From Candidatus Acetothermia bacterium (GTDB lineage: Bacteria; Bipolaricaulota; Bipolaricaulia; Bipolaricaulales; Bipolaricaulaceae): a DNA stretch of 64,000 bases. The notes below the pieces were generated by a model. That model had not been told where the DNA came from and ran no database searches. It saw only the letters and a list, made by a program, of their open reading frames with translations. The stretch is taken from positions 8,011-72,010 of the forward strand of contig JANLFW010000005.1 in assembly GCA_024653305.1 (NCBI GenBank). Reading direction: 5' to 3'. Shown one piece after another: positions 4,264 through 29,084 of the stretch; the stretch's first letter is position 1; each line of letters opens with the position of its first letter. The position numbers and the translations under genes were made by a program.

Positions 4264-5340
4264 ATGGTCCACGCCGAGGTGGACAGGCGCGCCCTGCGGG
4301 GGAACCTGGAGCGGCTACGGGAGTGGCTGCCCCACCGGGTGGCAATGATGCTGGTGGTCAAGGAGGACGCCTACGGCCACGGCCTCCTCCCGGTAGCTCG
4401 CGCCGCCCAGGGGATCGCGGACTGGTTCGGCGTGGCCTACGTGACCGAGGCCCGCGCCCTGCGCCGGGCCGGGTTCACGGAGCCGGTGTTCATCATGACC
4501 CCTCCGGTGGGACTCGCGCTCGTCCAGGCCGTGCGGGAGGGGTTCCACATCCCCCTCGGGGACGTCGGGATGATCCCCGAGATCGAGGCCGCGGCGTCCC
4601 GGGCTGGGCGGCCAGCCCTCGTCCACATCGAGGTGGACACCGGAATGGGCCGGTTCGGGCTTCTCCCGGAGGAGGTGGACCGCGCCCTCGCGGTCCTGAA
4701 CCCCAAGCGGGTGGAGGTGACCGGCATCTACTCCCACCTCTCCTCAGCCAACGGCCGCACCCAGGACGACCTCCTGTTCACGCGGGCCCAGGTGTGGTGG
4801 TTCCGCAACCTCCTCGCGGAGTGGGGCCACCGGAACCTGCCGATCCCGTGGCGCCACCTCGCCAACTCCGCGGCGGCCCTGGCGTTCGACGAGGCCACCG
4901 CGCCCCCGCTGAACATGGTGCGGGTAGGGACCGCGGCCTACGGGTACCCCGACGGACCGGTCCCCTTCCCGGTTTCCCTTACCCCGGCCGCCCGGGCGTG
5001 GACGGAGGTGGCCGCGGTGCGCGACCTGCCCCGGGGGTGGCCGGTGGGGTACAGCCGGACCTACGTGACCCCGGAGCCGGCGCGGGTGGCGATCCTCGCC
5101 GCCGGGTACGGGGACGGCCTGCGGCCGGAGCTCAAGCGGGTGGTGATCCGGGAGCGGCCGGCGGAGCTCGTGGGGAAACTGGGGATGGACACCGTGGCCG
5201 CCGATGTGACCGCGCTCACTGGGGTTCGTCGCGGCGACCGCGCCCTCCTGTTCGGTCCCGGGATCAGCGGCCATCAGGGCTGGATCTGCCCGGTTCTGGT
5301 CCCGGTCCTCCTCTCCGCCCGCCGCCGCTGGACGGGGTAG
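4264..5340 (+). CDS. alr: Alanine racemase (PLP)
   Basis: A 358-residue fold-type III PLP enzyme interconverting L- and D-alanine for peptidoglycan. The PLP lysine is Lys33 in VVKEDAYGHG; the family form is VVKANAYGHG, so two residues next to the lysine differ. The second catalytic tyrosine is in VGYSRTY, and the C-terminal domain has AAGYGDGLRP and VGKLGMD. Length is slightly below the usual 360-390. It is divergent from hypF and precedes the murein-salvage operon, where D-Ala released from wall peptides could also be handled. The unusual residues next to the lysine leave room for a different substrate. Confidence 0.9.
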   Translation: MVHAEVDRRALRGNLERLREWLPHRVAMMLVVKEDAYGHGLLPVARAAQGIADWFGVAYVTEARALRRAGFTEPVFIMTPPVGLALVQAVREGFHIPLGDVGMIPEIEAAASRAGRPALVHIEVDTGMGRFGLLPEEVDRALAVLNPKRVEVTGIYSHLSSANGRTQDDLLFTRAQVWWFRNLLAEWGHRNLPIPWRHLANSAAALAFDEATAPPLNMVRVGTAAYGYPDGPVPFPVSLTPAARAWTEVAAVRDLPRGWPVGYSRTYVTPEPARVAILAAGYGDGLRPELKRVVIRERPAELVGKLGMDTVAADVTALTGVRRGDRALLFGPGISGHQGWICPVLVPVLLSARRRWTG

Positions 5341-5351
5341 GGGTCCCCGTC

Positions 5352-5384
5352 CGTCGTCGACCGAAAGCCCGACGATGGCCAGGT
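5352..5384 (+). repeat. 33-bp direct repeat, left copy (hypA 3'-end sequence)
   Basis: This 33-bp stretch is identical to 12299-12331, which lies in the 3' coding end of hypA. Read on the minus strand it encodes LAIVGLSVDD, the same as the HypA C-terminus, with weaker resemblance just upstream. It contains a 6-bp inverted repeat TCGTCG/CGACGA with a 10-nt loop. The two copies bracket the whole murein-salvage operon. Confidence 0.85.
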
Positions 5385-5458
5385 GGTGGACCGGGCCCTC
5401 GCCAACCTCCGGGAGCCCTCCTCAGGCAGAGGGATTCCCTAGCGCCCCAGGCTCGTTC

Positions 5459-5487
5459 TTGACTTTGACCGCGCTTCGCGCTATGTT
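5459..5487 (+). promoter_or_regulatory. Promoter for the murein-salvage operon
   Basis: TTGACT (5459-5464), 17-nt spacer, TATGTT (5482-5487). Transcription would start near 5494, giving a leader of about 30 nt with a GGAGG Shine-Dalgarno site at 5514-5518 before the GTG at 5524. Confidence 0.55.
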
Positions 5488-5523
5488 GAACGTGTGGGTC
5501 GATCATGCCTTGTGGAGGCAAGC

Positions 5524-6651
5524 GTGTTCCGGTTTCGCTTTAAGCTGGAGAAGCCATTCCGGATAGCCATCGGGTACACGAAAGAGAAGGAAGAGATCGT
5601 CGTCCGTCTCGTGGACAGTGCTGGCAATGTGGGGTGGGGTGAGGCCTCGCCAAGCCCCCTCATCTTGAGCGCCACCTCGGATACGGTGCTCGCCGCCCTG
5701 GACGTGTTGATCCCCACGATCCTCGGGGAGGACCCCCGGCGACTGCGGTACCTTATGGACAAGATGGACCGGGCCCTTCACGGCCACGCCCCGGCCAAGG
5801 CCGCGGTGGACATAGCCCTCCACGATCTGGTCGGGCACATCACCGGGGAGCCGGTGTGGCGCCTGTTGGGAGGAAGCCGCGCCGAGCCTGTGGACACCGA
5901 TTTCACAGTGGGGATCGACGCCCCGGAGGCCATGGCCGCTGAGGCCAAGGCCCTCGTGGCCGCGGGCTTCCGCACGATCAAGGTGAAGGTGGGCGAGGAT
6001 CCTCAGGTGGACGTTGCCCGAGTGCAGGCGATCCGGGACGCGGTAGGGGATGCGGTGACCATCCGCATTGATGCCAACCAGGGCTGGACGCGTCCGGAGG
6101 CGGTATGGGCTCTGACCAGGATGGCCGAATACGACGTCCAGTTCGTGGAGCAACCGGTGGCCGCGGAGGACATCGAGGGGTTGGCGTGGGTGCGCCGCCG
6201 GTCCCCGATCCCGGTGATGGCCGACGAGGCTGTGCACACCCCCGCCGATGCGTTGCGGGTGGTACGGGCGGAGGCCGCCGATTACGTGAACATCAAGCTC
6301 ATGAAGGCGGGGGGGCTATGGCGGGCTCGGGAGATCGCGGCCATCTGTGGGGCGGCGGGGATCCCCAACATGATCGGGGGGATGGTGGAGTCGAACCTGT
6401 CGGCCACAGCGGCGGTGCACTTCGCCATCGCCGAGAGCAACGTGATCTTCCGCGATCTGGACATCGGGGAGCGGCCGGAGACCCAGCTCGTGGCCGAAGG
6501 CGGGTCGCACATCGAGGCCGGCCATCAGGTATTGACCGATCCCGAGGCCCCGGGGTTTGGGGTTCGACGTCTCCAGGAGGAGTGGCTCGTCCCCGTGAAG
6601 ACCTACCGCTTAGGAGAAGGAGGTGGGAGAAGGGACAAGACCGTGGCGTAG
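5524..6651 (+). CDS. Dipeptide epimerase, enolase superfamily (L-Ala-D/L-Glu epimerase type)
   Basis: A 375-residue enolase-superfamily protein with the capping domain first and the TIM barrel after about residue 125. Barrel motifs are all present: IKVKVG (catalytic KxK), IRIDANQGW, FVEQPV and MADEAVHT (three metal ligands), then NIKLMKAGG (second catalytic lysine). Such epimerases convert L-Ala-D-Glu from murein into L-Ala-L-Glu for ordinary peptidases. The GTG at 5524 is preferred because GGAGG lies 5 nt before it; an earlier GTG at 5494 lies at the predicted transcription start. It is the first gene of an operon with a peptide importer, lysA and an NlpC/P60 endopeptidase, which supports the murein dipeptide substrate. 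Other dipeptides remain possible. Confidence 0.88.
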   Translation: MFRFRFKLEKPFRIAIGYTKEKEEIVVRLVDSAGNVGWGEASPSPLILSATSDTVLAALDVLIPTILGEDPRRLRYLMDKMDRALHGHAPAKAAVDIALHDLVGHITGEPVWRLLGGSRAEPVDTDFTVGIDAPEAMAAEAKALVAAGFRTIKVKVGEDPQVDVARVQAIRDAVGDAVTIRIDANQGWTRPEAVWALTRMAEYDVQFVEQPVAAEDIEGLAWVRRRSPIPVMADEAVHTPADALRVVRAEAADYVNIKLMKAGGLWRAREIAAICGAAGIPNMIGGMVESNLSATAAVHFAIAESNVIFRDLDIGERPETQLVAEGGSHIEAGHQVLTDPEAPGFGVRRLQEEWLVPVKTYRLGEGGGRRDKTVA

Positions 6652-6704
6652 AGGGCCCATTTGGTAGTGCCCTTCAGGGGCAGATGGTTAAGGAGGTGTT
6701 TCCA

Positions 6705-8288
6705 TTGAAGAAAGTCGCGGAGTTGATTTTTTTGGCATTGCTCGCAGGCGGGCTGGTGGGGTGGGCGGTGCCTCCACGGGACACCCTCATCATCGGGGCC
6801 CGCACGGACATCATCGTGGACCTGGACCCGGCACGGGCGTACGAGGTGTTCACCGATCTCGTCATCGAGCAGTACTACGATGCCTTGGTCAACATCGTCA
6901 TCGAAGAGGGTGAAGTGGTGGCTAGGCCGGGGCTTGCCGTAAGCTGGGAGGTCTCCTCAGACGGGTTGACCTGGACCTTCCACCTCCGCAGAGGGGCTAA
7001 GTTCCATTCCGGCCGAGAGGTCACCGCCGACGATGTGGTGTACTCGTTCCATCGCTCGCTGAGTCTCAATTTCGCCCCGATTTGGATCCTCTCCCAATAC
7101 GTGCCGAGCAAAGACATGATCGCGAAGGTCGACGATCACACGGTGGCCATCACCACGAAGGAGCCGGTAGCGGAGCTCATCATCGCTTCGGTGATCGGCT
7201 TTCAGGGGATCTGTTCTATCCTCGACCGTGAGTTGGTGCAGGCCCACGCTACGGAGGTCGATCCGTGGGCCAACGAGTGGCTCAAAACCAACGATGCCGG
7301 GTCTGGGCCGTTCATCCTCGTGGAGTGGTCACCCAATGAGCGCATCATCCTCGACCGGTTCGACGGGTACTGGGCCGGGCCGGCTGGGGTGAAGCGCATC
7401 ATCATCGTCGACATCCCTGAGCCGGCGGCCCAGAAGCTCGCCCTCGACAAGGGCGACGTCGACATCGCTTGGGACCTCCTGCCGGAGCTGGTGGACCTGT
7501 ACCGGGGCCTCCCCGGGTTCACGGTGGTGGAGGGGCCGGGGTGGGGCATCGAGTACCTCGCGGTGAACGCCGGAAAACCTCCGTTCGACAACGAACTCGT
7601 GCGTGAGGCCATCCGGTGGGCGGTGGATTACGACGCGATCATTTACGGGATCCAGAAAGGCGCAGCCATCTACGGCCAGACGATCATCCCCGCTGGGATG
7701 TTCGGGCATCTCCCGGAAACCCCCTTCCACAAGGACTTGGAGAAAGCCAAGGCCCTCCTGGCCCAGGCGGGATACGCGGAAGGGTTCGAGGTGGAGATGC
7801 TCTCCAGCACGCACCCGCGGCGGGTAGCCATCGCCACCCAAGTCCAGGCCGACCTCGCCCAGATCGGGATCAAGGTGAACATCACCCAGATGGTGTCCGC
7901 CCAGTTCTACGAGATCTACCGGGCGCAGAAGCACCAGATGCTCGTGGCCGGGTGGGGTGTGGACTACGCTGACCCCGATAGCCTGGCCAAACCGTTCGCC
8001 CACTGTTGTACCACTGGGCCCGAAGCCCCGGTGCGACAGCTGGCGTGGCGGAACATGTACGTGGACTGCGAGACCACCCAGCGTGTCGAGGAAGCAGCCC
8101 AGGAGTTGGACCCCGAGAAACGGCGGGCCATGTACGAGGAGATCCAGCAGCGGCTCCTGCACAAAGGTCCGTACGTGATCCTCTACTACCCCCTCAACCA
8201 GGTGGTCACCCGGGCCGTGGTCCAGGGGCTTAAGCTGAACCCGATGCTGAGCTTCACCGAGTTCTGGCCGGTCGCGAAGACGGGCTGA
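6705..8288 (+). CDS. Peptide ABC transporter substrate-binding protein (SBP_bac_5 family)
   Basis: A 527-residue DppA/OppA-type periplasmic binding protein. The start is TTG at 6705, with AAGGAGGTG at 6690-6698 six bases upstream; it gives a clear signal peptide (KK then a hydrophobic run to about residue 22). The mature part has family features such as SSDGLTWTFHLRRGAKFHSG and DVVYSFHRS. No lipobox cysteine is seen at the cleavage site. The following permeases and the wall-recycling enzymes suggest it binds murein peptides such as L-Ala-D-Glu-mDAP; this is inference from context. A strong stem-loop follows the stop codon. Confidence 0.9.
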   Translation: MKKVAELIFLALLAGGLVGWAVPPRDTLIIGARTDIIVDLDPARAYEVFTDLVIEQYYDALVNIVIEEGEVVARPGLAVSWEVSSDGLTWTFHLRRGAKFHSGREVTADDVVYSFHRSLSLNFAPIWILSQYVPSKDMIAKVDDHTVAITTKEPVAELIIASVIGFQGICSILDRELVQAHATEVDPWANEWLKTNDAGSGPFILVEWSPNERIILDRFDGYWAGPAGVKRIIIVDIPEPAAQKLALDKGDVDIAWDLLPELVDLYRGLPGFTVVEGPGWGIEYLAVNAGKPPFDNELVREAIRWAVDYDAIIYGIQKGAAIYGQTIIPAGMFGHLPETPFHKDLEKAKALLAQAGYAEGFEVEMLSSTHPRRVAIATQVQADLAQIGIKVNITQMVSAQFYEIYRAQKHQMLVAGWGVDYADPDSLAKPFAHCCTTGPEAPVRQLAWRNMYVDCETTQRVEEAAQELDPEKRRAMYEEIQQRLLHKGPYVILYYPLNQVVTRAVVQGLKLNPMLSFTEFWPVAKTG

Positions 8289-8292
8289 GGTA

Positions 8293-8327
8293 AAGGGGCC
8301 TGGGGGCCTTTGCCCCCCAGGCCCCTT
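8293..8327 (+). other. Intercistronic stem-loop after peptide-binding protein gene
   Basis: A perfect 14-bp stem (8293-8306 with 8314-8327, AAGGGGCCTGGGGG) with a 7-nt loop, 5 nt after the stop. No T-run follows, so it is more likely an mRNA-stabilising or attenuating hairpin than a full terminator. The permease gene starts 27 nt downstream. Confidence 0.8.
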
Positions 8328-8354
8328 GATCCTTAAGGCCCAACCCAGACCAGC

Positions 8355-9362
8355 ATGGTTGGTTACGTCGTACGCCGGTTGGTATGGATGGTCCTCGTCC
8401 TGTGGGGGGTGACGACGATCACGTTTTTCGTGGCCCGCGTGATCCCCGCTGACCCGGTAGGTGCGATCCTCGGCCCCCAGGCACCCCCGGAGGCCATTGA
8501 GCGGGAGAAGGAGCGTTGGGGCCTGGACAGGCCCATGCACGTCCAGTATGTCCGGTACATCGCCGGGCTCCTGCGGAGGGACCTCGGGGTGTCACTGCGC
8601 ACACGGCGGCCGGTCTTGCAGGACATCCTTTACTACTTCCCCAATACGTTAGAGCTCGCCTTGGCAGCCCTGTTCATCGGCGTGGTGATGGGGATCGCTC
8701 TAGGGGTGGTGTCCGCGGTGCGCAGCGGCCAGGCGGTGGACCACGCGTCGCGGGTGTTCGCCATCGTGGGGCTTTCCATGCCCGCCTTCTGGCTTGGGCT
8801 CCTTTTGCTGTTGATTTTCTACCACACCCTGGGGTGGCTGCCTGGTCCGGGCCAGCTCCCTTATTACTTCCCACGCCCCCCGCGCGTCACGGGGTTCCTT
8901 AGCCTGGATTGCTTCCTCGCTCGAGATTGGACGGCCTTGGGGAGTTACCTCCTTCATCTGATCATGCCGGCGTTCACTTTGGGGTGGCTCTCCACCGCTT
9001 CCATCACCCGCATCACCCGCTCGAGCATGCTCGAGGTGCTTCGGGAGGAATACATCAAGACGGCGCGGATGAAGGGCCTGCGGGAGGGCGTAGTCGTCAT
9101 TAAGCACGCCTTCAAGAACGCCCTCCTGCCGGTCATCACGGTGATCGGGATCCGGGTGGCCAGCCTCCTGGAGGGGGCGGTGCTTACGGAAACCGTGTTC
9201 GCCTGGCCAGGGCTGGGCCGGTACGCGACGCACTCGTTTCTGTCCATCGACTTCAACGCCGTCGTCGGGGTGGCCCTGTTCATGGCCCTCCTCTACGCGG
9301 TGTGCAACCTGGCCGTGGACCTCCTGTACGCGTACCTCAACCCCAAGATCCGGTACGTGTGA
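8355..9362 (+). CDS. Peptide ABC transporter permease, DppB/OppB type
   Basis: A 335-residue inner-membrane permease with about six transmembrane segments. It begins with VGYVVRRLVWMVLVLWGVTT, the typical OppB N-terminal helix, and has the cytoplasmic coupling loop EYIKTARMKGL followed by NALLPVITVIG. It pairs with the DppC-type permease 6 nt downstream. No ATPase gene is in this operon, so the energy-coupling subunits must be encoded elsewhere. Confidence 0.93.
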   Translation: MVGYVVRRLVWMVLVLWGVTTITFFVARVIPADPVGAILGPQAPPEAIEREKERWGLDRPMHVQYVRYIAGLLRRDLGVSLRTRRPVLQDILYYFPNTLELALAALFIGVVMGIALGVVSAVRSGQAVDHASRVFAIVGLSMPAFWLGLLLLLIFYHTLGWLPGPGQLPYYFPRPPRVTGFLSLDCFLARDWTALGSYLLHLIMPAFTLGWLSTASITRITRSSMLEVLREEYIKTARMKGLREGVVVIKHAFKNALLPVITVIGIRVASLLEGAVLTETVFAWPGLGRYATHSFLSIDFNAVVGVALFMALLYAVCNLAVDLLYAYLNPKIRYV

Positions 9363-9368
9363 CCGACG

Positions 9369-10211
9369 ATGAGGGGACTGACCTGGGGCGACGTGGGGCG
9401 GCAGCTCTTGCGCAATCCACTGTCGCTTACGGGCACGGTGATCATCGTTGCGCTCCTGCTGCTGGCGCTGCTTGCCCCGTACATCGCCCCGTTCAACCCC
9501 TACGCCACCAACCCCACTCAGAAGCTGCTTCCCCCGAGCAGGACCAACTTGATGGGCACCGATGGGCTCGGCCGGGACGTGTTCAGCCGTATGCTCTATG
9601 GGACCAGGATCTCCTTGTGGATCGCGCTCCTCATCCTCCTCATCGCGGGCACCCTGGGCACGGCGGTGGGCATCGTGGCTGGATACGTGGGCGGGTTTTG
9701 GGATAACCTACTGATGAGGATCACCGACGTTTTCATGGCTTTTCCCCAACTAATCCTAGCCATGGCTGTGGCGGCCGCCCTAGGGCCGAACCTCACCAAC
9801 GTGGTGATCGCCATCTCGTTCGGGGCGTGGACGGTGTTCGCCCGTCTGGCGCGCAGCCGGGCCATCGCGGTGCGGGAGGAGGACTTCATCGAAGCTGCCC
9901 GGGCCGTAGGGGCGGGTCCGCTGCGAATCCTGTTCGTACACATCCTCCCCATGGCCATGAGCCCGGTGATCATCCAGGGCACACTCAGCATGGGGGGGAT
10001 CATCCTCACCGCCGCCGGGCTGGGGTTCCTGGGGTTTGGTGCCCAACCCCCCAGCCCGGAGTGGGGCCTCATGGTCAGCGACGGCCGCAACTTCATGCCC
10101 CATGCATGGTGGGTGTCCACGTTCCCAGGGCTCGCGATCATGATCACCGTGCTCGGGTTCAACCTCATCGGGGACGGAATCCGGGACATCCTTGATCCCC
10201 GTATGCGCTGA
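9369..10211 (+). CDS. Peptide ABC transporter permease, DppC/OppC type
   Basis: A 280-residue permease with the N-terminal helix (about 18-42), the periplasmic NLMGTDGLGRDVFSR segment and the coupling loop DFIEAARAVGAGPLRILF that docks the ATPase. It is the partner of the preceding DppB-type subunit. The next gene, lysA, starts only a few bases after the stop, so import and diaminopimelate decarboxylation are transcriptionally linked. Confidence 0.93.
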   Translation: MRGLTWGDVGRQLLRNPLSLTGTVIIVALLLLALLAPYIAPFNPYATNPTQKLLPPSRTNLMGTDGLGRDVFSRMLYGTRISLWIALLILLIAGTLGTAVGIVAGYVGGFWDNLLMRITDVFMAFPQLILAMAVAAALGPNLTNVVIAISFGAWTVFARLARSRAIAVREEDFIEAARAVGAGPLRILFVHILPMAMSPVIIQGTLSMGGIILTAAGLGFLGFGAQPPSPEWGLMVSDGRNFMPHAWWVSTFPGLAIMITVLGFNLIGDGIRDILDPRMR

Positions 10212-10220
10212 TCTTTGTCC

Positions 10221-11483
10221 ATGGGCCCCAGCTGGCTTGAGGTCGTGGGCGGAGTGCTATGGACAGAGGGGATCCCCCTTACGGAGGTCGCCAACTGGTT
10301 CGGCACACCATGCTACCTCTACAGTACACGAGGGATCCTGGAGAACCTCTCCAGGTTACGAACCGCGCTGGCTGGGCTGCCTGTGGAGCTGTGCTATGCG
10401 GTGAAAGCCAATCCCAATGGGGCGGTCCTGCGTTTGCTCTCGCGCGAAGGCCTCGGAGCAGAGGTGGTGTCGGGAGGGGAGTTAACCCGGGCTCTCCGGG
10501 CGCGCTTTCCCCCGGGCAAGATCCTGTTCTCCGGAGTGGGCAAGACCGAAGAGGAACTCCGCGGTGCAGTGCATGAGGGGCTGAGGGCGATCGTGGTGGA
10601 GTCTCTGGAGGAACTCGATCTTCTCGCTCGTCTAGCCATGTGCTTGAACCGGAAGGCGAACGTGGCGCTGCGCGTCCACCCCTCCCTTGATCCCCACACC
10701 CACCCTTACCTCGCCACCGGCCAGGAAGGGAGCAAATTCGGTCTGGACATCGTCTCCATCGCTACGGCCCTTGATAAACTCGTCACGGTGCGTGAGCTGA
10801 CACTCGTCGGGTTTCACGTCCACTTGGGATCGCAGGTTCGTGAGGTCAACCCCTACATGCAGGCCTTGGATCAGCTGATGTCCCCGGTGAAGGCCGCACG
10901 AGAACGCGGTTTCTTTCCAACGTTCCTGGATCTCGGGGGCGGGTTCGCCATCCCGTACGAGGACGGGGAAACGGCTTTTCCTGTGAGCGAACTTGGCGGT
11001 GCCCTACGGGGCCACAGCTTCGATGACCTAACGCTCCTGTTCGAACCGGGGCGGGCGCTGGTAGGCAGCGCTGGGATCCTCCTCACCAAGGTGCTCTACC
11101 GAAAGCGCGTGCACGGGCGGGCGTTCGTGGTGGTGGACGCGGGGATGAGCGACCTCATTCGCCCCAGCCTCTACGGAACACACCACCGGATCGTGCCCGT
11201 TAGGACCCGACACGAAGGGACTCAGACCGTGACCGTAGTGGGCCCCCTCTGCGAGAATGCAGACGTCCTCGCCCGAGAATGCCCTCTGCCGCCGGTGGCA
11301 CCGGGGGATGTGCTGGCCGTGCTGGATGTCGGGGCGTACGGATTCGCCATGGCCTCCCAGTACAACTCCCGACCGCGGGCAGCCGAGGTGCTGGTTGTGG
11401 AAGGGGAAGTTCATCTGGTACGGAGTAGAGAGACTCCAGCGGATTTGTGGCGGGGGGAGGAGGTGCCGGAGTGCCTGGCCTGA
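10221..11483 (+). CDS. lysA: Diaminopimelate decarboxylase
   Basis: A 420-residue fold-type III PLP decarboxylase that converts meso-diaminopimelate to L-lysine. Motifs: the PLP lysine in CYAVKANPN, HVHLGSQ, the phosphate-binding DLGGGF, FEPGR, and GPLCENAD carrying the active-site cysteine of the partner subunit. The C-terminal GAYGFAMASQYN is typical of LysA. ATG at 10221 is preferred over a TTG two codons earlier. In this operon its substrate is probably diaminopimelate released from imported murein peptides, although it may also serve lysine biosynthesis. Other decarboxylases of this fold act on arginine or carboxynorspermidine, but the motifs and neighbours favour diaminopimelate. Confidence 0.93.
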   Translation: MGPSWLEVVGGVLWTEGIPLTEVANWFGTPCYLYSTRGILENLSRLRTALAGLPVELCYAVKANPNGAVLRLLSREGLGAEVVSGGELTRALRARFPPGKILFSGVGKTEEELRGAVHEGLRAIVVESLEELDLLARLAMCLNRKANVALRVHPSLDPHTHPYLATGQEGSKFGLDIVSIATALDKLVTVRELTLVGFHVHLGSQVREVNPYMQALDQLMSPVKAARERGFFPTFLDLGGGFAIPYEDGETAFPVSELGGALRGHSFDDLTLLFEPGRALVGSAGILLTKVLYRKRVHGRAFVVVDAGMSDLIRPSLYGTHHRIVPVRTRHEGTQTVTVVGPLCENADVLARECPLPPVAPGDVLAVLDVGAYGFAMASQYNSRPRAAEVLVVEGEVHLVRSRETPADLWRGEEVPECLA

Positions 11484-12235
11484 GGTGGGTGGCCTCCACC
11501 TTGGCTGATCTTCGGGCGGAGCCGGACGACCGAGCCGAACGCGTGTCCCAACTCCTCCTGTTCTCGCAGTGCGAAGGGTTGGAGACGGGACCGCAGTGGA
11601 GCAGAGTCCGCGGCCCTGACGGCCATGTGGGCTGGATCAGAGAGCCCCAAACCGTCTCGGGGCCGTTGCCCGGCTCCCAGTGGAAGGTTTGTGCCTCCGT
11701 AGCAGTAGTGCGGGAGATCGCATCAGGGAAGACCATCGGTCGAATGGCGTTGGACACCCGTTTTGCTGGCACGGCCGCTGCCGAGAAGGTTCAGGTGATG
11801 TGGCCCACAGGCGAAGTTGGGTGGGTACCGAAGGACGCGGTGAAACCGGCCACTTGGGTGGGCACGAGGCATGATCTTCTGGCGCTAGCCCAAGAGCTGG
11901 TGGGAGTGCCTTACTTGTGGGGCGGGACTTCCCCGTTCGGTTTTGACTGCTCCGGGTTCGTCCAACGCCTCGTTCACTTCGTGTTCAACCGCTGGCTCCC
12001 TCGGGATTCCAAGGACCAACAAGAGTGTGGGATCCGCGTGACCGCCCTTCACGACCTGGAGCCAGGCGACCTCGTGTTCTTCCGCAGCCATGTGGGGATC
12101 TGGCTGGGCGATGGCCGGATCATCCACGCGAGCGGGCGAGAGGGGCAGGTGACGATTACGGTTCTGGATCCCCCACAGGGACCTTACGCGCAGGAGCTAC
12201 GAGCGAAGTTCCTATGGGCGGGACGGGTGGTTTGA
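11471..12235 (+). CDS. NlpC/P60 endopeptidase with SH3-like domains (gamma-D-Glu-diamino acid type)
   Basis: A 254-residue protein. The first 130 residues hold two SH3b-like modules (GHVGWI and GEVGWVPKDAV); the rest is an NlpC/P60 domain with catalytic Cys in FDCSGFVQR, His in RSHVGIWLG and a further polar residue in IIHASG. The start is GTG 11471, preceded by GGAGGAGG at 7-nt spacing and overlapping the lysA end by 13 nt. No signal peptide is seen, so it should act in the cytoplasm, like the recycling enzyme YkfC of Bacillus. It would cut L-Ala-D-Glu-mDAP into L-Ala-D-Glu, the substrate of the epimerase, and mDAP, the substrate of LysA, which closes the pathway encoded by this operon. Confidence 0.9.
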   Translation: MPGLRWVASTLADLRAEPDDRAERVSQLLLFSQCEGLETGPQWSRVRGPDGHVGWIREPQTVSGPLPGSQWKVCASVAVVREIASGKTIGRMALDTRFAGTAAAEKVQVMWPTGEVGWVPKDAVKPATWVGTRHDLLALAQELVGVPYLWGGTSPFGFDCSGFVQRLVHFVFNRWLPRDSKDQQECGIRVTALHDLEPGDLVFFRSHVGIWLGDGRIIHASGREGQVTITVLDPPQGPYAQELRAKFLWAGRVV

Positions 12236-12266
12236 TCCAAGAGCAGGGTATCCTCTCCGTCCGCAT

Positions 12267-12671
12267 CTAGGCCGCTACGCCCGGTCTAGGAGGTGTGGCG
12301 TCGTCGACCGAAAGCCCGACGATGGCCAGGTCGCGGCCTTCGACGACCTCGGCACGCCCTCCGCACCGAGGGCAGGCGAGCACGGGCACGGCGAAGTGCC
12401 ACCCCTCTTCGGCCAGGTACCGGACCGGGCCCAAGTAGCCACATCCGGGGCACCGCACTTTGGCGGGCACCCGCTCCACCACGAGGTCCGAGCCCGCCAC
12501 CACGGTCCCCTCGGTCAAGATACGCCACGCCTCCCGGAGGGCCTCCGTGGACAGGACCAAGAGTTCCCCTTGGCGCACGTGCACCGCCGCGATGGAGCCG
12601 GGAGCCGGGTGTTCCCGCAGGTGGGCCAAGAGCCCCTCCAACAGGGCCTGGGCCAGGGAGTACTCGTGCAT
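12267..12671 (-). CDS. hypA: Hydrogenase nickel insertion protein HypA
   Basis: A 134-residue HypA. It begins MHEYSLAQALLEG; the MHE start provides the nickel ligand His2. The zinc site is formed by CPGC and CPRC (about residues 73-102). It delivers nickel to the large subunit of [NiFe] hydrogenase together with HypB. The ATG lies immediately after the hypB stop. The last residues DLAIVGLSVDD are encoded by a 33-bp sequence repeated exactly downstream of alr, at the other side of the murein-salvage operon. Residues after that (ATPPRPGVAA) form a low-complexity tail that may have been acquired on rearrangement. Confidence 0.95.
   Translation of the reverse strand: MHEYSLAQALLEGLLAHLREHPAPGSIAAVHVRQGELLVLSTEALREAWRILTEGTVVAGSDLVVERVPAKVRCPGCGYLGPVRYLAEEGWHFAVPVLACPRCGGRAEVVEGRDLAIVGLSVDDATPPRPGVAA
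12299..12331 (+). repeat. 33-bp direct repeat, right copy (inside hypA 3' end)
   Basis: Identical over 33 bp to 5352-5384 and in the same orientation. Here the sequence is coding, on the minus strand, for the end of HypA. The flanks of the two copies diverge immediately outside the repeat. Confidence 0.85.
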
Positions 12672-13313
12672 TCAGAGGCCGAGCGCCGCCAGGAGCTCCT
12701 CCACCCCGCGCCCGCTCTTGGCGTCGGTGAGCACCGCCCGTCCATGGGGATTGAGCCTGCGGTAGTCGGCCACCAGCTTCTGGGGATCCACGCCGACGAT
12801 CTCCGCCAGGTCGATCTTGTTCACCGCCACCACGTCGGTCTGGGCGAAAATCTTGGGGTGCTTGCGCACCATGTCGTCGCCCTCGGTTACCGAGATCACC
12901 ACGAGGTCGCCCTCCGTGCCCAAGGGGAAATCGGCCGGGCACACCAGGTTCCCGACGTTCTCGATGAACAGCACGTTCACCCCGGAGAGGGGGAAATCCG
13001 TCAGGGCGTGGCCTACCCGGTGGGCATCCAAGTGGCAGTCGTCCCCGGTGTTGATGCTCATCGCCGGGAGCCCGGCCGCCTTGAACCGCTGGTAATCGTC
13101 GTCGCCCGCCACGTCGCCGGCGATCGCCCCCACCTTGAGCCCCTTCGCCTTCAGCCGCTCGGCCATGCGGATGATGAGGAGGGTCTTCCCGGAGCCGATC
13201 GCCCCCATGACGTTGATCGCCCGGATCCCCCGGTCCTTGAGCAGTTCATAGTTACGCTCCGCCAGCTCGAACTGGCGCTTCAGCACATCGCCAAACCCAA
13301 GTGTGTCGTGCAC
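12672..13313 (-). CDS. hypB: Hydrogenase/urease maturation GTPase HypB
   Basis: A 213-residue SIMIBI-class GTPase: P-loop GAIGSGKT (about 45-52), metal-binding Cys/His in DDCHLDAHRVG, switch ENVGNLVCPADF and guanine-recognition NKID. It supplies GTP-driven nickel delivery with HypA to the hydrogenase large subunit. There is no His-rich N-terminal nickel store. The GTG at 13313 is chosen because it matches the family start and lies 9 nt behind a good promoter; the much longer upstream frame is spurious. The gene is divergent from mbhA, so hypBA and the mbh operon are arranged head to head. Confidence 0.95.
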   Translation of the reverse strand: MHDTLGFGDVLKRQFELAERNYELLKDRGIRAINVMGAIGSGKTLLIIRMAERLKAKGLKVGAIAGDVAGDDDYQRFKAAGLPAMSINTGDDCHLDAHRVGHALTDFPLSGVNVLFIENVGNLVCPADFPLGTEGDLVVISVTEGDDMVRKHPKIFAQTDVVAVNKIDLAEIVGVDPQKLVADYRRLNPHGRAVLTDAKSGRGVEELLAALGL

Positions 13314-13322
13314 GGCGGGGCG

Positions 13323-13351
13323 ATCATACCCCTCCCGTTGCCGGACGACAA
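13323..13351 (-). promoter_or_regulatory. Promoter for hypBA, near-leaderless
   Basis: On the minus strand: TTGTCG (13346-13351), 17-nt spacer, TATGAT (13323-13328), then 9 nt to the GTG start of hypB. This supports the short HypB start. Confidence 0.55.
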
Positions 13352-18662: not shown

Positions 18663-19890
18663 GGCCGAGAACACGTTCCGCATCCCGATCGGGCCGATCC
18701 ACCCCGCGCTCAAGGAGCCGGTCCGGCTCTCGTTCCAGGTCGAAGGGGAGCGGATCGTCGGGGTGGACATCCGCACCGGGTTTGCCCACCGCGGGATCGA
18801 GTACATGGGGATGCGCCGCAATCTGATCCAGGTCCTGTATCTCGCGGAGCGGATCTGCGGTATCTGCTCCGTCGCTCACCCGATCGCCCTCACCCAAGCC
18901 GTGGAGCAGGCAGCGGGGATCGAGGTTCCACCCCGCTCCCAGTACATCCGGGTGATCATCTCGGAGCTCGAGCGCATCCACTCCCACCTCCTGTGGGCAG
19001 GGGTGGCCGCCCACGAGCTCGGGTTCGACACCCTCCTCCACCTCACCTGGAAGGTGCGGGAGAAGGTCCTCGACATCCTGGAGGAGCTCACCGGGAACCG
19101 CATCGACTACGCGATCCCCATCTACGGCGGGGTGCGGCGGGACATCGCCCCGGACCAGTACCCCAAGGTCCAGGGCACGATCCGCTACTACCGGGGGCTT
19201 TTGGACGAGCTTTTGGACACGTTCCTACGCGACCCGTCGGTGGAAGCCCGCACCCGCGGGGTGGGGGTACTGGAACCAGAGGAGGCCGATGCCCTGTGTG
19301 CGGTCGGCCCCACCGCCCGCGCGTCGGGCCTAGCCAAGGATGTGCGCCAGGACCGGCCGTACCTCGCCTACGGCGAGCTCGGGGTCAAGGCGATCACCCC
19401 CCGCGACTGGGGCCTTGTGCCCCGCGGGGATGTGTACGACAAGATCGTGGTTCGGCTCCTCGAGGTCGGGCAGTCCTTGGGCCTGATCGAGCGGGCGCTC
19501 CTGGAGATGCCGGACGGGGAGATCACCTCATTCCCCAAGATCCCGGCTCTCCTTGCCCACCTCAAGAAGGCCCAAGGGGAAGGCCTGGGCTGGCACGAGG
19601 CGCCGCGGGGGGAGGTCATCCACTACGTGCGCCTGGAGGCGGGGGTCGAGGAGCCGGTGGTGTGGAAGGTCAAGGCCCCCACCTATTCGAACTTGATGAG
19701 CTGGAAGCCGATGTTCGAGGGCCAGGAGATCGCGGACATCCCGATCATCGCCGCCTCGATCGACCCCTGCATCTGCTGCATGGACCGCGTGCACATCGTG
19801 CGGGGCGAGGATGAGACTGGGATGGCCATGGAAGAGCTCCTTCGGCTGTCGCGGGCGAAGACCCAGAGGATACTGACGGGGAATGGGTGA
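18655..19890 (+). CDS. mbhL: Mbh subunit L, [NiFe] hydrogenase large subunit
   Basis: A 411-residue group 4 large subunit (NuoD-like). All four nickel-iron ligands are present: Cys68 and Cys71 in RICGICSVAH, Cys372 and Cys375 in DPCICCMDR. This separates it from Mbx/Mbs-type sulfur reductases and from complex I, which lack part of the set. It reduces protons to H2. After Arg378 there is a 33-residue extension, as in HycE-type subunits whose tail is removed after nickel insertion; no protease gene is seen in the window. An additional cysteine, Cys374, sits inside the second motif. The start at 18655 overlaps mbhK; the longer frame is spurious. Confidence 0.96.
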   Translation: MAEAENTFRIPIGPIHPALKEPVRLSFQVEGERIVGVDIRTGFAHRGIEYMGMRRNLIQVLYLAERICGICSVAHPIALTQAVEQAAGIEVPPRSQYIRVIISELERIHSHLLWAGVAAHELGFDTLLHLTWKVREKVLDILEELTGNRIDYAIPIYGGVRRDIAPDQYPKVQGTIRYYRGLLDELLDTFLRDPSVEARTRGVGVLEPEEADALCAVGPTARASGLAKDVRQDRPYLAYGELGVKAITPRDWGLVPRGDVYDKIVVRLLEVGQSLGLIERALLEMPDGEITSFPKIPALLAHLKKAQGEGLGWHEAPRGEVIHYVRLEAGVEEPVVWKVKAPTYSNLMSWKPMFEGQEIADIPIIAASIDPCICCMDRVHIVRGEDETGMAMEELLRLSRAKTQRILTGNG

Positions 19891-19931
19891 TGTGTGTTTC
19901 TAGGGCTCGTCACGCGTCACGGGGGTGATGG

Positions 19932-20924
19932 ATGAGCGGCTGGCATCTCGTCTGGCAGGCGGCAGCGGTGATGGTCGGCAGCGGCGTGGTGGGCCTGGTC
20001 TACAAGGGCCTCGATCGCAAGCTCGCCGCCCGGATGCAGGCCAGAGTCGGCCCTCCGCTCCGGCAGCCGTTCCTCGACCTCGGGAAGCTCCTGATGAAGG
20101 AGACGGTGGTCCCGCGGGACGCGGTGGGGTGGCTGTTCCGGGCGATGCCGTTCCTGGCGGCCGTGGCCTCGTTCACCACCCTCCTCTACCTCCCCTTGGG
20201 GCCGTTCCCCCCGATCCTCCGCGGGTACGGGGACGCGGTGCTGGTCCTGTACCTCCTGGCGGTGCCGGCGTTGGCGATGGCCCTGGGCGGGTTCGCGTCC
20301 GGATCGCCCCTGGCCACGGTGGGCGGGCAGCGGGAGATCGTGATGCTCATGTCCTATGAGTTCCCGCTCGCGGTGGCGCTCGTCGGGGTGGTGTGGCGGC
20401 TCAGGGCCCTGGAGGTGGGACCGGCGTTCTCGCTGGCCACCATCTCCGCGAACCCGTTGTGGACAGCGGTGGGGCCGCTCGGGGTGTTCGGGCTGGCCAT
20501 CCTCCTCGGATGCCTGTTGGTGGTGACCCCGGCTGAGCTCTCCAAAATCCCGTTCGACATCCCCGAGGCGGAGACGGAAATCGCCGGGGGGCTGATGGTG
20601 GAGTACTCCGGGACCTACCTCGCCCTGTTCTACCTCGCCGACGCGGTGAAGACGGTGGCGATGGCGGCGCTGGTGGTGGCCTTGTTCATCCCGTACGGGA
20701 TCGCCGCGCCGCTCGGGGTCAAGGGCGTGGGCGGGCAGGTGCTCGACGTCGCGTTCTTCCTCGTCAAGGCGTTCGTGGTGATGTTCGCCGCGGCGACCAC
20801 GGTGCGGGTGGCGATGGCCCGGTTCAAGGTGGATCAGGTGGTCCGCGGGTTCTGGCTTCAGATCACGGCGGGGGCCGTGGTCGGGTTGGTGCTGCTCGTG
20901 CTGGACAAGGCGGTGATGGGATGA
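19932..20924 (+). CDS. mbhM: Mbh subunit M (NuoH-like membrane anchor)
   Basis: A 330-residue NuoH/complex I subunit 1 homologue with about eight transmembrane helices. Family signatures are [29 protein letters not shown] and [20 protein letters not shown]. It anchors the hydrogenase module and connects redox chemistry to ion movement. A 41-bp gap before it is the longest within the operon and holds no clear promoter. Confidence 0.95.
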
Positions 20925-22210: not shown

Positions 22211-22569
22211 CTATGGAGCCACGACCTCGTGCCGGGCATCCCAGAGGAGCTCCCCCCGTGGGTAGACGCGCAGGTGCCAGCGCCCGGGGGCTAGGCCCTC
22301 GATGCGCCCCCGTAGGGGAGAGGGATGGCTCCCATCCAGTCTATCTATGCGGCATGGCCGCCCTCCACGCGTTTCGGTGTTTGCCGGGACCTCCTTCCGA
22401 GACGGCTCGCCAGCTGCTTCGCCCCTTCCGCCGAGCGCCAACAGGTTTGTCGACCACGGCCTGCGGGGGCTTCTGGCCCCCATGCCGCCTTTCGCCGCGG
22501 CAGCTCGTCGGGGACGAAGATCCGCACCTTGTGCACGCCCCGGAAGAGAAAGGTGCCGCCCAGGTACAC
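22211..22569 (-). pseudogene. Possible decayed ORF, frame-shifted
   Basis: Two protein-like stretches lie in different minus-strand frames. The upstream one, from GTG 22569, reads VYLGGTFLFRGVHKVRIFVP and then degenerates into an Arg-rich frame. The downstream one ends at 22211 with GLAPGRWHLRVYPRGELLWD, which resembles the end of a beta-sandwich or T9SS/FlgD-type domain. Neither frame alone gives a sensible protein. The most economical reading is a short exported-protein gene broken by at least one frameshift. No family is recognised. Confidence 0.35.
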
Positions 22570-22682
22570 TGCGGAACACTCCTCGGCCAGGGGGCGATCC
22601 CCCCACGCCTCGCCCTTGCCCTTTGAACGCTGGTCGAGGCGCGCCCTTGGCCGTTGCCTGCGCTTGGGGTAAACTCGATTCG

Positions 22683-28232: not shown

Positions 28233-29084
28233 TCAAATGCGCCGTTCGAACCTGGGGTCCAGGACGTCCCGCAGCCCGTCGCCGACGAAGTTGAACCCCA
28301 AGGCGGTGATCATGATCGCAAGCCCGGGGAATGTGGAAACCCACCACGCGAAGCCGATGAGCCCACGTCCGTCGGCGATCAACGCCCCCCATTCCGGGAT
28401 CGGGGGCTGGGCCCCTACCCCAAGGAAGCTCAGCGCCGCTGAGGAGAGGATGGCCGCCGGCATTTCCAGCGTAGTGTACACGACCACCGGACCAAGGGCG
28501 TTGGGCAAGACGTGACGAAACAATATTCGTGTTCGGGAAGCACCCAAAGCGTAGGCCGCCGTCACGTAGTCCAACTCACGCAAAGAGAGCACCTGTCCCC
28601 GAAGGAGCCGGGTGAATTGTCCCCACCCAGTTACAGCGATGGCTATGATCATCACCCCAATCCCACCGCCCAACGCTCCAGCCAGGGCAAGGGCAAGCAC
28701 CAACCCCGGGATGGACCACACGATGTCCACCGCCCGCATGATCAGGCTATCAACAACCCCCCCCACGAACCCGGCCACCAGCCCAAGGATTCCTCCCAAC
28801 ACCATTTGAAGAACAACCACACCCATCCCGATAAGAAGCGCATAGCGACTCCCGTACAGCACCCGACTTAAAAGGTCACGGCCAAGCACATCGGTGCCCA
28901 TGGGGTGCGTCGCCGATGGCGGGGACAGCAAAGCATCGAAGTCCATGGCCAGAGGGTCGTACGGGGCGATCACGTCGGCAAGCAGTGCCGTAAGCCCCAC
29001 CGCGGCCACGAAAAAAAGCCCGACCAGGGCGAGGTGGTTACGCGTGAACCTGCGAACTGCCCGCGACGAAAAGAACTGTTTCAT
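28233..29084 (-). CDS. Peptide ABC transporter permease, OppC type
   Basis: A 283-residue permease with an N-terminal helix (about 17-38), HPMGTDVLGRDLLSRVLYG and the coupling loop DYVTAAYALGASRTRILF. It pairs with the OppB-type gene directly upstream (2-nt gap). The importer lacks its own ATPase genes. Confidence 0.93.
   Translation of the reverse strand: MKQFFSSRAVRRFTRNHLALVGLFFVAAVGLTALLADVIAPYDPLAMDFDALLSPPSATHPMGTDVLGRDLLSRVLYGSRYALLIGMGVVVLQMVLGGILGLVAGFVGGVVDSLIMRAVDIVWSIPGLVLALALAGALGGGIGVMIIAIAVTGWGQFTRLLRGQVLSLRELDYVTAAYALGASRTRILFRHVLPNALGPVVVYTTLEMPAAILSSAALSFLGVGAQPPIPEWGALIADGRGLIGFAWWVSTFPGLAIMITALGFNFVGDGLRDVLDPRFERRI

Follow-up and report, generated by a model that had tools for sequence, protein, structure and literature searches.

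The repeat pair and the genes it encloses

As an operon between alr and hypA is bordered on both sides by the same short sequence, one copy of which forms part of hypA, we wondered how the operon came to separate the two genes and what left the other copy behind. The window analysed here is a stretch of 64,000 nucleotides from a 1.59-Mb assembly of 73 contigs (G000), and positions refer to the window throughout. Direct comparison confirmed that positions 5352–5384 and 12299–12331 are identical over 33 bp on the same strand, as the first-pass annotation had reported. No exact repeat in the window is longer than this pair (the runner-up measures 25 bp), and the longest repeats in 40 order-3 Markov shuffles of the window reached 15–22 bp, in keeping with the earlier judgement that the match is not due to chance. 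The search suggested for the 33-mer located it at two places only (left-region search, whole 1.59-Mb assembly), and it was not found in viral contigs. The copies had also been said to diverge immediately outside the repeat. This holds on the side facing alr and nlpC, where they part at once (flank similarity P = 0.27), but not on the hypA side, where the match amounts to 38 bp at 95% and is followed by ∼45 bp of weak collinear similarity to hypA (P = 0.002–0.004 against the genome's own hypA; P = 0.0017 for the best among 29 hypA genes).

The left border of the locus is formed by the alanine racemase gene alr (4264–5340, plus strand; Pfam PF01168/PF00842), whose last 109 amino acids are 98% identical to those of the sister species G001 (record JACIWI, Candidatus Bipolaricaulota MAG-22). 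Between the repeat copies lies one operon, as had been proposed, with all genes on the plus strand. It comprises an enolase-superfamily dipeptide epimerase resembling L-Ala-D/L-Glu epimerases (5494–6651; PF02746/PF13378; best NCBIfam match NF041118, under its equivalog cut-off), a DppA-like peptide-type substrate-binding protein of the SBP_bac_5 family (6687–8288; PF00496; best NCBIfam match DppA, under cut-off), DppB-like (8355–9362; PF00528/PF19300) and DppC-like (9369–10211; PF00528/PF12911) ABC permeases, the diaminopimelate decarboxylase LysA (10215–11483; TIGR01048, 445 bits and thus above the cut-off of 297.9) and an NlpC/P60 endopeptidase with an SH3 domain (11447–12235; PF00877, PF18348). 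The operon lacks an ATPase gene. On the minus strand to the right follow the nickel-chaperone gene hypA, intact here (12267–12671; PF01155), and, as right border, hypB (12675–13340; PF02492), which is 95% identical to that of G001. The right repeat copy encodes LAIVGLSVDD in frame, so that its earlier assignment to the end of HypA was correct.

Profile matches thus place epimerase, importer, NlpC/P60 endopeptidase and diaminopimelate decarboxylase together in one operon, and the identical gene order occurs elsewhere in the family, for example in G013. These contents fit a putative role in the uptake and use of wall peptides (murein peptides). As the permeases come close to nickel-family models too, with scores under the cut-off, we infer rather than assign a murein or wall peptide as the substrate. 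The murein-peptide operon ykf of Bacillus subtilis likewise combines an L-Ala-D/L-Glu epimerase-like enzyme and an NlpC/P60 endopeptidase with peptide import genes; it contains an ATPase and an LD-carboxypeptidase, whereas the operon described here has LysA, two permeases and a binding protein. Elsewhere in the window, positions 28251–28529 align, on the opposite strand, with G001 dppC (69%), which hints at another importer permease gene.

The left copy and the alr/hypA junction in relatives

The left copy had been described as lying alone after alr and reading LAIVGLSVDD on the minus strand. Its derivation from hypA, its strand and its place after alr were upheld, and it starts 12 bp past the alr stop codon, but it is not free-standing. 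In its minus-strand frame the sequence reads *GGLPEVGEGPVHHLAIVGLSVDD (asterisk, stop) compared with CGGRAEVVEGRDLAIVGLSVDD at the C-terminus of HypA, the in-frame TGA occupying the position of the codon for a zinc-ligand cysteine of HypA. Its best tblastn match is to residues 104–134 of the genome's own HypA (E = 1e-4), and a gapped alignment to the hypA gene of G026 extends over ∼86 columns, through ∼5434, with one 6-bp insertion near the repeat end. Because reading frame, tblastn match and G026 alignment all continue past the 33 bp, the left copy is, on sequence comparison, a decayed hypA 3′ end: a pseudogene stub of ∼80 bp (5352–5431, minus strand) that sits in ancestral position and orientation and still matches the working gene exactly over 33 bp. 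These 33 bp are identical to the genome's own hypA and agree with that of any relative at no more than 28 of 33 positions; outside them, the remnant aligns to G026 hypA at least as well as to the genome's own. When the left 141 bp were compared with 100 relatives, four matches fell on hypA 3′ ends, and the rest were weak and lay elsewhere.

Where the remnant begins, G015 and other relatives keep their only hypA gene. The first-pass annotation had predicted that removal of the operon would place alr beside hypA, and the comparison of the locus that it suggested found such an empty site in at least eight relatives (G015, G005, G020, G026, G036, G014, G006 and G011). In these, a leftward hypF is followed by a rightward alr and a leftward hypA (the G006 contig ends inside alr, with hypF out of view), and hypB follows hypA in seven of the eight and is located elsewhere in G011. 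In G015 (L091, 9474–9500), the two convergent genes apparently overlap, as the hypA reading frame continues beyond the alr stop codon and enters alr. Judged by eye, G034 (L099:2430–3640) and G037 (L100:9370–10130) carry HEPN-like and minimal-nucleotidyltransferase-like open reading frames between alr and hypA, and G020 seems to retain a fragment of the HEPN-like frame at the junction. Other peptide-importer genes, with permeases about 35–53% identical, were seen downstream of hypA in G009 (L098) and G035 (L118), so importers beside hypA recur.

A second occupied site was found in G010, a member of another genus, with the order hypF, alr, frameshifted hypA, importer, lysA, nlpC, intact hypA and hypB. 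Its hypA pseudogene spans about amino acids 15–127 (∼110 codons) and is thus much longer than the remnant in G000. The importer differs (24% identity for dppA, 42% for dppB and 39% for dppC), and lysA and nlpC are 54% and 59% identical. As the G010 pseudogene resembles its own hypA (71% identity) no more than it does those of other genera (74–75% to G026 and G020), it is probably a resident gene that was displaced by a different incoming allele rather than a fresh duplicate.

Mosaic tracts in comparison with the sister species

In G001, the genes follow one another as alr, epimerase, dppABC, lysA, nlpC, an MFS transporter, an isochorismatase-like hydrolase, a beta-lactamase-fold gene, hypA and hypB. 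Although the operon sits in the same place, no hypA stub was found between alr and epimerase in this genome. The two genomes are ∼95% identical over 40 kb, apart from three sharp tracts of low identity. The first (5341–5930; 56–80% identity) runs from the alr stop codon to mid-epimerase and holds the hypA remnant, and the second (6494–6800) reaches from the epimerase end to the dppA start. The third (10212–12640), with breakpoints at the dppC stop codon and at codon ∼10 of hypA, comprises lysA, nlpC and the 3′ part of hypA; its counterpart in G001 consists of lysA, nlpC, the MFS transporter, isochorismatase-like and beta-lactamase-fold genes and the hypA 3′ part. The final gene of the conserved block before this tract is dppC (∼96% identity). 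Two further dips or gaps in identity between G000 and G001 were noted outside the locus, at window positions 19501–20000 and 22324–22597.

Identity between the two genomes is 95% for hypB, 74% for hypA, 56% for lysA and 58% for nlpC. Along hypA, it amounts to 66–82% at 12290–12638 and, beyond, to at least 86% and mostly at least 92%. On its right the third tract ends ∼10 codons into the gene, so that hypA is a chimera of an exchanged 3′ part of ∼340 bp, an allele unlike that of G001, and a shared stretch of the first ∼10 codons. Identity changes between the sister genomes in sharp steps that gene rate does not account for, and the trees conflict: the hypA tree separates G000 and G001, whereas the hypB tree does not.

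With regard to direction, epimerase and beta-lactamase-fold gene are neighbours in four genomes of the g12 genus (G018, G012, G027 and G024) and in G017; the pair shares a contig with hypA in G018, G012 and G027, and in G018 it directly adjoins hypA, as in G001. Because this pairing recurs, parts of the right side of G001 may represent the older state, with G000 as the recipient. The GC3 of hypA (85.8 in G000 and 96.9 in G001, with alr at 93.6) also leans toward G000 as the recipient, neither GC3 nor neighbour pattern being decisive. Distances of the epimerase tracts to outgroups gave no clear answer as to which of the two genomes received the tracts. By gene identity, no close donor was found among the relatives for hypA, lysA or nlpC of G000, and its lysA and nlpC are no closer to those of G010 than to others. 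The low GC3 of lysA and nlpC was considered as a mark of recent import and rejected, as it is low in all three genomes compared.

Origin of the scar

The first-pass annotation had read the locus as an insertion. The left copy does derive from hypA and the operon does occupy the alr/hypA junction, but instead of a mobile element the data point to RecA-type exchange of hypA alleles with mosaic import. We therefore favour, with moderate confidence, homologous import that displaced the resident hypA, followed by later mosaic exchange, over a classical mobile element. The ancestral locus would have comprised hypF, alr and hypA-hypB, the convergent alr and hypA genes nearly abutting. DNA of a relative with the wall-peptide operon beside its own hypA would have entered by homologous (RecA-type) recombination, most likely after natural transformation, with hypA/hypB as the right-hand anchor. 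The incoming hypA 3′ part would have replaced that of the working gene, and the resident 3′ end, stranded beside alr, would then have decayed. Further imports from relatives may have reshuffled the operon locus into its three mosaic tracts, and the 33 identical bases may mark where the two hypA copies exchanged or converted a short tract. Import anchored in hypA/hypB would account for the displaced stub, the difference in hypA alleles and the mosaic tracts. Several points speak against it: G001 has the operon block without the left remnant, no close donor was found among the relatives, the low GC3 of lysA and nlpC does not mark a recent import, and 33 straight matches are improbable given the ∼70–76% identity of the adjoining remnant. 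As import alone would hardly yield this identity, a second event, either conversion or a very recent copy, would be needed.

For natural transformation, discontinuous donor segments close to each other are reported (PMC13344027); likewise, several discontinuous, sharp-edged tracts of low identity lie close together here, in a genome that encodes ComEC. One-sided (one-end) homologous integration is described for homology-facilitated illegitimate recombination (PMC3240628). As in that process, one end here rejoins resident sequence, inside hypA at codon ∼10, with new genes beside it; however, the other end has since been reworked, and an illegitimate junction cannot be demonstrated there. If this reading is correct, an operon can settle beside a housekeeping gene through recombination alone, leaving a stub of the displaced gene, and the locus would hold a readable trace of gene import in an uncultured phylum. 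It also calls for caution, as hypA alleles here depart from the history of neighbouring genes. Tentatively, the convergent alr/hypA junction in Bipolaricaulota might even be a recurrent integrase-free landing site at which exchange of hypA alleles repeatedly swaps cargo, namely wall-peptide operons in two genera and HEPN plus nucleotidyltransferase-like pairs in another, a possibility to which we give about one chance in four.

Alternatively, hypA could have been doubled in place, with the operon landing between the copies and the alr-side copy decaying. The perfect agreement of the left 33 bp with the genome's own hypA, against at most 28 of 33 with any relative's, favours such a tandem duplication. 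We nevertheless regard it as unlikely, as the G010 pseudogene resembles hypA of other genera no less than its own, the G000 remnant outside the 33 bp fits G026 hypA at least as well as its own, and the hypA tree marks hypA itself as an exchanged allele. Campbell-type integration of a circle with the operon and a hypA fragment, by a single crossover inside the 33 bp and with excision still possible, would explain the geometry, that is, direct repeats of which the left is joined to alr and the right to working hypA, with the 33 bp as exchange tract. This is quite unlikely, however, given that the right hypA differs from that of G001 over ∼340 bp, well past the repeat, and that G001 carries the operon without the left repeat.

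A site-specific mobile element that uses the 3′ end of hypA for attachment deserves little credence. The locus does share with genomic islands at gene or tRNA 3′ ends a fragment of the target-gene 3′ end at the far border, the likeness that the first-pass annotation had drawn to elements at tRNA ends, but unlike these islands it has neither an integrase nor a conserved core site. Neither an integrase nor a transposase nor a tRNA turned up at the locus, in line with the earlier remark that no integrase was visible; none is among the interval genes, and the sole integrase-family gene found lies on contig 22, not on the locus contig. As the G010 remnant comprises ∼110 codons and G001 has the operon without any, there is no fixed 33-bp target or attachment core, and the absence of the 33-mer from viral contigs also argues against such an element. 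Very improbable, too, is a shared functional signal under selection, such as a terminator hairpin for convergent alr and hypA: the 33-mer can fold into an 8-bp stem, but z-scores of −1.0 to −1.9 mark this folding as ordinary and no U run is present, hypA ends of relatives differ at 5 or more of the 33 positions, and coding similarity continues past the 33-mer. Finally, a misassembly in which the 33-mer linked two hypA-end contexts, conceivable in a genome fragmented into 73 contigs, is barely worth entertaining, as the alr-epimerase adjacency is present independently in G001 and the same architecture recurs in G010.
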